Source: Desemzia incerta (GTDB taxonomy: Bacteria > Bacillota > Bacilli > Lactobacillales > Carnobacteriaceae). Taken from it: a stretch of 64,000 nucleotides of DNA. The position numbers and the translations under genes were made by a program. The DNA lies in the NCBI RefSeq assembly GCF_900115825.1, contig NZ_FOXW01000004.1, positions 62,001 to 126,000 of the forward strand, in the 5' to 3' direction. The notes beneath the pieces were generated by a model. It saw only the letters and a list, made by a program, of their open reading frames with translations. It ran no database searches and was not told the origin of the DNA. Of this stretch, positions 53,047-55,632 are shown piece by piece (position 1 is the stretch's first letter; each line of letters begins with the position of its first letter).

Positions 53047-54642
53047 CTATTTTTTCATCGATGCTTCAATCAATCCTAAGAACAATGGGTGTGGTGCATT
53101 TGGTCTGGAAAGAAATTCTGGGTGGTATTGGCTGGCAATGAAGTATGGATGATCAGCCAACTCGATCACTTCTACTAAGCGTCCGTCTGGAGATAATCCG
53201 GAGAAGACCATCCCTTTATCTTCAAGCACTTGGCGGTAATCGTTTTTGAATTCATAACGATGGCGATGGCGTTCTTCAACCGATTCTTTTTGGTACAACG
53301 AACGCGCCAGTGACCCTTCTTTCAACTCACACGGGTACAAGCCTAGACGTTGTGTTCCACCTAAGTCGCCTTGCTCATCTTGATCCGCCATCAAGCTGAT
53401 GATCGGATGTTCAGCGCCTGGATGTGTTTCTGTAGAATGGGCATTTTTCAATCCAGCCACATTACGGGCAAATTCAATACTTGCCAACTGCATTCCTAAA
53501 CAGATCCCTAAGAATGGCACTTTGTTTTCACGGGCAAATTGGATCGCTGCGATTTTTCCTTCCAATCCTCTATGACCGAATCCGCCGGGAACTAAAATTC
53601 CGTCTGCATCTTTCAATCGTGAGGCCACGTTTTCTGTCGTTACTTCTTCAGAGTTCACCCAATCGATATCGATTTTGTGTTTGGTCTGGTAGCCTGCGTG
53701 TTTCAACGATTCAACTACAGATAGATAAGCATCCGGCAACTCTACGTATTTCCCAACGACCGCGATGCGGACTGTGTCTTCCAAATGAGTGATATTGTCT
53801 ACTAAATGTTCCCAGTGAGCCATATCAGCTTGAGGAGCTTCGATATTTAATTTGCGCAAAATGTTGTCGTCCATTTTTTGTTCTTTCAGCAATAACGGAA
53901 TTTCATAAATAGAGTTCACGTCTTGGTTTTCAATAATGTCTTCTTCTTCGACATCGCAGAAACTAGCCAGTTTGCTTTTAACAGATTGAGGCAGGTCTTC
54001 TTCTGTACGCACGACTAACAAGTTCGGCTGGATACCTAAACTGCGCAATTCTTTCACACTGTGTTGTGTCGGTTTGGTTTTCAATTCCCCTGAAGCTTTC
54101 AAATAAGGAACCAATGTCACATGGATATACAGCACGTTGTCACTTCCAGCGTCTTTCCTCATTTGACGTAAAGCTTCTAAGAATGGCAGCGACTCGATAT
54201 CTCCAACAGTTCCGCCGACTTCCGTGATGACAATATCAGAACCGGTCGACTCTCCGGCACGAACGATCTTATCTTTGATTTCATCGGTGATGTGGGGAAT
54301 GACTTGGACTGTTCCACCTAAATATTCGCCTTTACGTTCTTTTTGGATCACGGACGAGTAAATTTTACCGGTCGTCAAATTGGAATACTGATTCAAACGA
54401 ATGTCGATAAAACGCTCATAGTGACCTAAGTCTAGATCCGTTTCTGTACCATCATCCGTTACGAATACTTCTCCGTGTTGATAAGGACTCATTGTTCCTG
54501 GATCCACGTTGATGTATGGATCGAATTTTTGGATCGTGACGTTCAGTCCGCGCTCTTTCAATAATTTCCCTAAAGAAGCTGCTACGATACCTTTTCCAAT
54601 GGAAGAAACGACTCCTCCGGTTACGAATATATATTTTGTCAT
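53047..54642 (-). CDS. pyrG: CTP synthase
   Basis: A 531-residue enzyme that aminates UTP to CTP. The N-terminal amidoligase begins [39 protein letters not shown] and [14 protein letters not shown] follow. The C-terminal glutamine amidotransferase has the nucleophile in [11 protein letters not shown] and the His-Glu in [10 protein letters not shown]. The start at 54642 has GGGGG before it; the upstream ATGs lie in the leader. Expression should be controlled by the CTP-sensing leader (54683-54796). A 3' hairpin element follows. Confidence 0.96.
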
Positions 54643-54682
54643 GATAAATCCCCCTAGTTTGAATATAGAGGAGAAATAAAAC

Positions 54683-54760
54683 AAAAAAATCCCCATTCCA
54701 TACAATCGGAACAGGGAGTCAAGTTCATTTTATTTTGCTCTCACCAAATAGCGCGAGCCC
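54683..54760 (-). promoter_or_regulatory. pyrG CTP-sensing attenuator (reiterative G addition)
   Basis: The predicted transcript begins GGGCTC at 54760, 7 bases after the -10. A terminator follows at 54690-54720: GACTCCCTGTTCC pairs with GGAATGGGG-type sequence, then seven Ts (54683-54689). In Bacillus and relatives, low CTP stalls polymerase before the C and adds extra G residues; the poly-G then pairs with the CUCCCU of the terminator and prevents termination. Both parts (GGGCT start and ACTCCC in the 5' arm) are present in the right order. Leader length to the ATG is 119 bases. Confidence 0.8.
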
Positions 54761-54767
54761 ATTTAAA

Positions 54768-54796
54768 ATCATACTTATTTTCATAGTGAACGTCAA
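54768..54796 (-). promoter_or_regulatory. pyrG promoter
   Basis: On the minus strand TTGACG (54791-54796), a 17-base spacer and TATGAT (54768-54773). It overlaps the region just past the sugar permease stop (54820). Confidence 0.75.
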
Positions 54797-54819: not shown

Positions 54820-55632
54820 TTACATTTTTAACGACCCTGTCATTCCTTTTACGAAGCCTTTTTGCATAAACAAGAACAATATCAAGGTTGGAATCGTCGC
54901 AATGATGATCGCGACCATTTGCGTACCATAATTGGCAACGTATGAAGCGGAAGAAAGACTTGAGATTAGCAACGTCATGGTATATTTGTTTTCCGTTTGC
55001 AAGAAAATCAACGGCAATAAGTAACTGTTCCATGAATTCATAAACGCGTAGATCGCTGCGGCTGCGTAAGTCGATTTCATCATCGGAAATACAACTCTGA
55101 AGAAGATCTCGTAGTTGCTGGCTCCCTCTATTTTACTGGCGTCAATAATCTCATTTGGAAAAGACTTGAAGTTCTGTCTGAAAAAGAAAATCAAAAACAA
55201 GTTATTGATCGCCGGCAAGATGATTGCTAAATGCTGGTTGACCAATTGTAATCCAGCCATCATTTTGAACAGCGGGATCACTAATGACGCCAATGGAATC
55301 ACCATAAATAAAAGGATGAGTCCATAAATCAACTCGCTGGTCTTGGTGGTGAATTTTTCAAATCCAAAAGCGGCTAATGAAGTGATGATTAGGCTTAAAA
55401 TGACTGTGACGCCTGATATTTTCAGCGAATTCCACATGATCAGCGGAATATCATAAGCTCCAAACAAATCTTGCAAGTTAACGAATAATTGATCGCCAAA
55501 AGTTAATTTCCCTTCCGCTATTTGGTTGGCGGTATTGGTCGCTCCTGCGATCATCCAGTAAAAAGGGAAAATGGAAATAAAGGAACTGATGATCAAAAAC
55601 GTATACTTTAATAGACTGGTTAATTTTTTCAT
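54820..55632 (-). CDS. sugar ABC transporter permease (MalG type), importer 1
   Basis: A 270-residue inner-membrane permease with six helices. The EAA loop that contacts the ATPase is seen as EIIDASKIEGASNYEIFFRVVFP (about 158-180). It is the second permease of importer 1, 27 bases downstream of the other permease. Six-helix length and the C-terminal LFLFMQKGFVKGMTGSLKM are typical of MalG-like subunits of the CUT1 family, which import oligosaccharides. The ATPase subunit is not encoded here. Confidence 0.9.
   Translation of the reverse strand: MKKLTSLLKYTFLIISSFISIFPFYWMIAGATNTANQIAEGKLTFGDQLFVNLQDLFGAYDIPLIMWNSLKISGVTVILSLIITSLAAFGFEKFTTKTSELIYGLILLFMVIPLASLVIPLFKMMAGLQLVNQHLAIILPAINNLFLIFFFRQNFKSFPNEIIDASKIEGASNYEIFFRVVFPMMKSTYAAAAIYAFMNSWNSYLLPLIFLQTENKYTMTLLISSLSSASYVANYGTQMVAIIIATIPTLILFLFMQKGFVKGMTGSLKM

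Follow-up and report, generated by a model that had tools for sequence, protein, structure and literature searches.

In Bacillus subtilis, pyrG is reportedly controlled by a CTP-sensitive reiterative transcription attenuation, described by Meng, Turnbough and Switzer in 2004. Both PMC4448216 and PMC6431027 cite this work for B. subtilis. They also report that reiterative G residues are found at the start of Streptococcus pyogenes pyrG (PMC6431027) and that pyrG is among the reiterating starts of S. agalactiae, with a terminator upstream of the gene (PMC6431027, PMC4448216).

The window, i.e. the whole stretch of 64,000 nucleotides of Desemzia incerta DNA analysed here, carries a pyrG gene preceded by the elements listed in Table 1. 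The original prediction had announced, with no strand given, a promoter TTGACG-17-TATGAT, a GGGCTC start at 54760 and a terminator with a C-tract followed by seven Ts; all of these are present, at the right coordinates, on the minus strand. Read on this strand, the leader consists of TTGACG, 17 nt, TATGAT, 7 nt, GGGCTCGCGCTATTTGGTGAGAGC, 16 nt, the GACTCCCTGTTCC...GGAATGGGGA terminator and its T7 tract, and the pyrG ATG lies 118 nt past the predicted start. The PyrG protein scores 857.9 bits against TIGR00337 (cut-off 462.75) and is likewise above the cut-off of NF003792, in a profile search whose query (53047-54645) included one extra codon 5' of the ATG.

Table 1. Elements of the pyrG leader and position of pyrG in the window
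Element	Position	Strand	Basis
-35 hexamer TTGACG	54791..54796	-	sequence; TTGAC shared by almost every one of the 105 leaders
-10 hexamer TATGAT, 17 nt from the -35 hexamer	54768..54773	-	sequence and leader comparison
GGGC initially transcribed sequence, with predicted start G 54760; predicted slippage site	54757..54760	-	7 nt after the -10 hexamer
5'-proximal hairpin, nt 3-24 (GCUC.CGCU / GGUG.GAGC)	54737..54758	-	predicted fold
C-tract ACTCCCTG in the 5' arm of the terminator, predicted to pair with the slipped G tract	54712..54719	-	sequence, alignment and fold
Intrinsic terminator stem-loop, 10-11 bp	54690..54717	-	terminator scan and fold
T7 tract of the terminator	54683..54689	-	sequence
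pyrG, CTP synthase, 531 aa, ATG at 54642	53047..54642	-	TIGR00337

The B. subtilis pyrG attenuator, as described, and the window leader have in common a promoter located before GGGC, a terminator located before pyrG and a predicted antiterminator formed by poly-G and the C-tract. The window leader differs from the former by its hairpin, which starts at nt 3 and hides G3, and by its terminator of 10-11 bp. It also shares the start sequence, the terminator and the predicted regulation with the streptococcal pyrG leaders (PMC4448216, PMC6431027); unlike in the window, the hairpin of streptococcal leaders of the GGGCACCUC type takes up much or nearly all of the spacer. Furthermore, the Rfam family RF02371 (PyrG_leader) has the same genetic position and general layout, but its consensus has no 5' hairpin, unlike the window and most Lactobacillales leaders. 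This model gives 24.9 bits on the window, below its threshold of 65 and with an alignment that is 6 nt off, and 34.8 bits, also below 65, on the congener; among the five pyrG-leader loci tried, only that of Bacillus safensis passes (83.6 bits). The present Rfam model misses the form of leader found in the window. A structured 'pyrG motif', tied to pyrG by its name, appears in PMC11109978; since the supplementary drawing of this motif may already contain the 5' hairpin, we do not claim the latter as novel.

From the anatomy, conservation, covariation and predicted folds, we infer slippage, CTP dependence and an effect on pyrG: the window leader is very probably a CTP-sensing attenuator of the B. 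subtilis type, acting by slippage at initiation. The match to this attenuator that had been put forward at the outset is supported by the parts present, by conservation across Bacilli and by predicted folds that fit the model. RNA polymerase would start at GGGC (54760). When CTP is plentiful, incorporation of the fourth base would be prompt and give a transcript beginning with GGGC; G3 would be locked in the 5' hairpin, the CUCCC tract would remain available for the terminator, and the majority of transcripts would end about 78 nt from the start. With low CTP, the polymerase would stall past GGG and add extra Gs; once about three or more have been added, the G tract would pair with CUCCC ahead of the synthesis of the terminator 3' arm, and this pairing would lead to read-through into pyrG. 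Induction of pyrG by CTP starvation is what this model predicts for this organism. Such an element would bring a textbook repressor-free control to another genus.

Taken alone, scans yield promoter-like sites (4 vs a shuffle mean of 7.3) and terminator-like sites (3 vs a shuffle mean of 2.6) in numbers that are not above chance; the weight of the case lies on conservation. The fold of the window leader itself beats its shuffles (z -3.19; 2 of 200 shuffles as good). Comparison was made over 110 pyrG loci, 30 of them from the window's genome and its relatives and 80 further ones (L032 and L011 probably represent a single organism). A -35/-10 pair is located 6-7 nt 5' of GGGC in 105 loci (97 at 7 nt and 8 at 6 nt), and CTCCC (77) or CCCC (23) is found downstream in 100 of these 105 leaders. 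Promoter and GGGC were not found in five pyrG loci (L030, L084, L106, L108 and L110), hence this arrangement is not essential to pyrG; five leaders (L025, L070, L076, L091 and L109) have no CTCCC or CCCC tract by this count. These data bear on the possibility that the window has only an ordinary promoter and a weak terminator with no response to CTP. Such a terminator could perhaps belong to the upstream sugar ABC-transporter operon, since a permease gene ends at 54820, just 5' of the pyrG promoter. However, this permease gene has a terminator-like hairpin of its own at its end (54837-54814, minus strand), ahead of the pyrG promoter, and the conservation of the arrangement before pyrG in the loci compared makes this explanation extremely unlikely. 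Two other variants were seen among these loci. Paenibacillaceae leaders such as L071, L080 and L092 keep promoter and GGGC and have GCCCC within an AAAGUG-type terminator. L030 (genus g8) and L084 (Streptococcus danieliae), devoid of a GGGC leader, show by eye an inverted repeat GGGGAGUGG.../...CUCCCUCCC 5' of pyrG.

The 51 leader-bearing loci taken as Lactobacillales were reduced to 45 before alignment by dropping six (near-identical ones and L028). Besides GGGC, whose invariance reflects the choice of rows, the columns that never vary are C6, two Cs within the C-tract and a single G on the 3' arm; beyond GGGC, the hairpin and the terminator, the leaders show little conservation. A covariance model (R2) built from 43 leaders, with neither genome of the window's genus included, matches the window at 54760-54679 with 30.7 bits (E 1.3e-5) and places the start exactly at 54760. 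The scarcity of conserved positions outside these elements argues against a protein-binding leader or a riboswitch unrelated to slippage, and no Rfam family reaches its threshold on the window leader. A leader peptide would find some support in a 24-codon reading frame (54728-54654, minus strand) whose ATG is at leader nt 33; this frame is missing from the congener L002 and the leader peptide was rejected for this reason. Taken together, these kinds of leader are the least likely of all the alternatives considered.

The hairpin adjoining GGGC is supported by the position of its stem relative to shuffles and by pair counts. In Lactobacillales, a stem of at least five pairs starting exactly at nt 5 occurs in 31 of 46 distinct leaders, whereas 200 shuffle runs give a mean of 8.9 and a maximum of 17. 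The nt-5 stem is also found in 19 of 38 leaders from other Bacilli (shuffle mean 6.5, maximum 14) and in 7 of 15 leaders from Paenibacillaceae and allies (mean 4.7, maximum 9), which as a group do not differ from shuffles. Pairing concerns 88.0% of the hairpin cells vs 70.3% in shuffles (unguided alignment), 47 cells are changed on both sides vs 19.9, and the covariation score reaches 0.436 vs 0.189 in shuffles and at most 0.155 in slid controls. Two of the five measures, pairs changed on both sides and number of pair types, are not above shuffles (equally high values in 342 and 350 of 500, respectively), and RNAalifold does not predict the 5' hairpin on alignment A1. Since single leaders often do no better than shuffles (p<=0.05 in 13 of 46 Lactobacillales leaders for the anchored stem and in 14 of 46 for energy), the significance of the hairpin belongs only to the set.

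Leaders were then folded up to the terminator loop, i.e. with the 3' arm not yet made, with extra Gs added at their 5' end. The share of the window C-tract predicted to pair with the 5' end is 0.00, 0.07, 0.50, 0.95, 0.98 and 0.83 at 0, 1, 2, 3, 4 and 6 extra Gs, respectively, and does not exceed 0.02 when As are added instead. The mean of the 45 leaders goes from 0.29 to 0.96 and 0.99 at 0, 2 and 4 extra Gs, with a rise in all 45. With no extra G, the window has the lowest predicted pairing of the 45 leaders, and that of Bacillus safensis is 0.35 by a slightly wider measure. At equilibrium, the full-length fold of the window leader still contains the terminator with as many as 8 extra Gs and loses it only at about 10; in the congener, the terminator holds up to about 4 extra Gs and the fold flips at about 5, and in Carnobacterium and Bacillus safensis there is no flip up to 10. 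As the window terminator is kept at full-length equilibrium, the switch must work during transcription by kinetic trapping, the antiterminator forming first and persisting.

In the window's genus, represented by two genomes (that of the window and L002), the stem starts at nt 3, two bases earlier, and takes in G3 and C4; the congener too pairs GCUC with GAGC from nt 3. According to the folds, the unextended GGG of the window would therefore already be partly hidden in the 5' hairpin. Blocking the nt-3 pairing in the window raises the predicted pairing of the C-tract from 0.07 to 0.46 at one extra G and from 0.50 to 0.96 at two; hence, the nt-3 hairpin may give this genus a tighter off state. 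The hairpin might also keep the G tract from pairing locally, but the predicted effect is weak: in the 35 leaders whose nt-5 stem has four or more pairs, blocking the hairpin 3' strand lowers the predicted antiterminator pairing only from 0.997 to 0.960 at 4 Gs and from 0.992 to 0.885 at 8 Gs.

The sequence of this hairpin is also relevant to CTP-dependent pausing inside the leader, a model reportedly proposed earlier for Lactococcus lactis pyrG. Here there would be no slippage: at low CTP, the polymerase would pause at a C-rich stretch and an alternative fold would block the terminator. Carnobacterium-type leaders (CUCCCUU...AAGGGA) lend themselves to this model, as pairing between their 3' strand and the terminator arm is conceivable. 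Elsewhere and in the window, however, the hairpin 3' strand is AAGAGU, GAGGU, GCGGU or GGUGAGAGC, which by eye pair poorly with the unchanged CUCCC, and the invariant partner of CUCCC is the 5' GGGC. Furthermore, the hairpin strands covary (AU, UA, CG and GC pairs) and GGGC and CUCCC are nearly fixed, indicating that CUCCC has its conserved partner in the 5' G tract rather than in the hairpin. We thus consider pausing very unlikely and prefer slippage at GGGC. A relay model, in which slipped Gs would open the 5' hairpin and release its 3' strand to block the terminator, was rejected as a general rule because this strand varies while CUCCC stays.

The main interest of the window leader probably lies in the genes controlled by its relatives: used as a search tool, the pyrG-leader model points to DUF1846/UPF0371, a widespread family of unknown function. 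A first model (R1), run with strict filters on 246 genomes of the order, gave a match at E<=0.01 in 168 of them. Among the 150 best matches listed, 139 are directly 5' of pyrG (including some of the training sequences), six are antisense at the same sites and five are elsewhere. All five non-pyrG sites among these 150 precede a DUF1846/UPF0371 gene (PF08903), either directly in G109, G158 and G179 (genus g8, probably Streptococcus) or in an operon containing it in G072 and G183 (genus g18). In another R1 search, a strong match in G298 corresponds to pyrG, and a weak one in G109 (34.5 bits), which sits at a gene end with no promoter, was dismissed.

In genus g8, DUF1846 is found in 70 of 88 genomes, eight of which have the leader directly upstream. 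The direct DUF1846 leaders amount to 10 loci with six distinct sequences (L111, L113, L116 and L137-L143), and each of these six has promoter, GGGC, hairpin, C-tract and terminator. Four extra Gs bring their predicted C-tract pairing to 0.94-1.00, and they score 45-53 bits with R2, whose training set included no DUF1846 leader but did include similar streptococcal pyrG leaders. RF02371 at E<=1 did not report the leader in the seven DUF1846 loci tried. The g8 DUF1846 leaders probably descend from a copy of a streptococcal pyrG leader.

Genus g18 (loci L146-L154) shows another organisation. In all 14 genomes, leader and DUF1846 share a strand and lie no more than about 8 kb apart; in 12 of them, pyrG is immediately 3' of the leader and DUF1846 comes after pyrG. 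In the seven of these 12 pyrG-DUF1846 stretches that were read, intergenic gaps are 22-276 nt, and the two stretches scanned have no gene-strand terminator. In the other five genomes, DUF1846 is about 2.5-6.5 kb from pyrG and the two genes would presumably be co-transcribed. Neither protein search nor PF06418 finds PyrG in the remaining two genomes, G072 (one contig) and G183. Both keep the leader, before an epimerase gene and then DUF1846 in G072, and before a long gene for a hydrophobic, membrane-protein-like product and then DUF1846 in G183; one terminator-like hairpin lies inside the epimerase gene of G072. Some weak further R1 matches (26-27.5 bits) were also observed in this genus (G031:C1:678392-678490, G051:C21:4254-4352 and G120:C23:136968-137036).

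The association of DUF1846 with the lack of PyrG extends beyond these two genomes. Taking PyrG as absent when the protein search gives none at E<=1e-50, it is not detected in 34 of the 246 genomes, and a profile re-test of three of them (G005, G072 and G183) was negative in each. DUF1846 is present in 33 of these 34 genomes, the exception being G231, vs 87 of the 212 PyrG-bearing genomes (Fisher p 8.8e-11, ancestry ignored). The 33 genomes span 16 genera and five families; counted by genus, with ancestry above genus uncorrected, the chance is 1.4e-7, or 1.8e-6 if G231 is taken as a further genus. Restricted to the four genera in which both PyrG and DUF1846 vary, p is 0.010.

Three of the 33 PyrG-less genomes with DUF1846 have the leader before this gene or its operon (G072, G183 and G159). 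In G159 (genus g37), which has no detectable PyrG, TTGACA-17-TATGAT-7-GGGCTCCC...CCCCCATTC...GAATGGGGG and a T tract directly precede DUF1846 (L188 173-235, minus strand); this leader, missed by the R1 scan, scores 32.8 bits with R2 (E 2.6e-6). It is the only one found by R2 upstream of DUF1846 in 31 PyrG-less genomes (up to 1.6 kb searched; 562 nt for L176). No leader was found by R2 upstream of DUF1846 in nine PyrG-positive genomes, nor any match in seven DUF1846 upstream stretches (L117-L120 and L132-L134, L117 being from the window's own genome), and none was seen by eye in the remaining stretches of 20 DUF1846 upstream regions. A weak R2 match in L192 lacks GGGC and was rejected on this ground.

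These data lead us to propose, tentatively, that DUF1846/UPF0371 is a second CTP source, non-homologous to PyrG (for example an unrelated UTP-aminating enzyme), which in some lineages is under a pyrG-type CTP-sensing slippage attenuator. This would explain the frequencies of DUF1846 in genomes with and without PyrG, the three leaders of PyrG-less genomes and the exclusive presence of DUF1846 at the non-pyrG sites among the 150 matches listed. In our view, the DUF1846 facts are best accounted for by a role in CTP supply, albeit with a confidence that stays below even. If this is true, there are two solutions to a step for which only one had been assumed. Several facts count against this role: the 30 other PyrG-less genomes with DUF1846 have no leader in the stretch searched, PyrG and DUF1846 coexist in 87 genomes and no leader of this kind precedes DUF1846 in the window's own genome. 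PyrG-less cells might also live by cytidine salvage. Moreover, there is no detectable similarity to PyrG, a profile comparison having found no homology between the two (probability 0.1 out of 100).

In the open-licence literature on DUF1846, UPF0371 and bacteria without pyrG, we found no link of this family to CTP. The structure model of a DUF1846 protein is poor (mean pLDDT 55.4) and, at E<=0.001, matches nothing in the PDB other than chains of the two solved DUF1846/UPF0371 structures (7f00 and 3bh1); therefore, no mechanism was read from it. PMC9238395 reports that the pneumococcal DUF1846 protein binds hemin and that its deletion is viable and slows growth, and PMC12548448 places DUF1846 on the list of essential genes of Clostridioides difficile.
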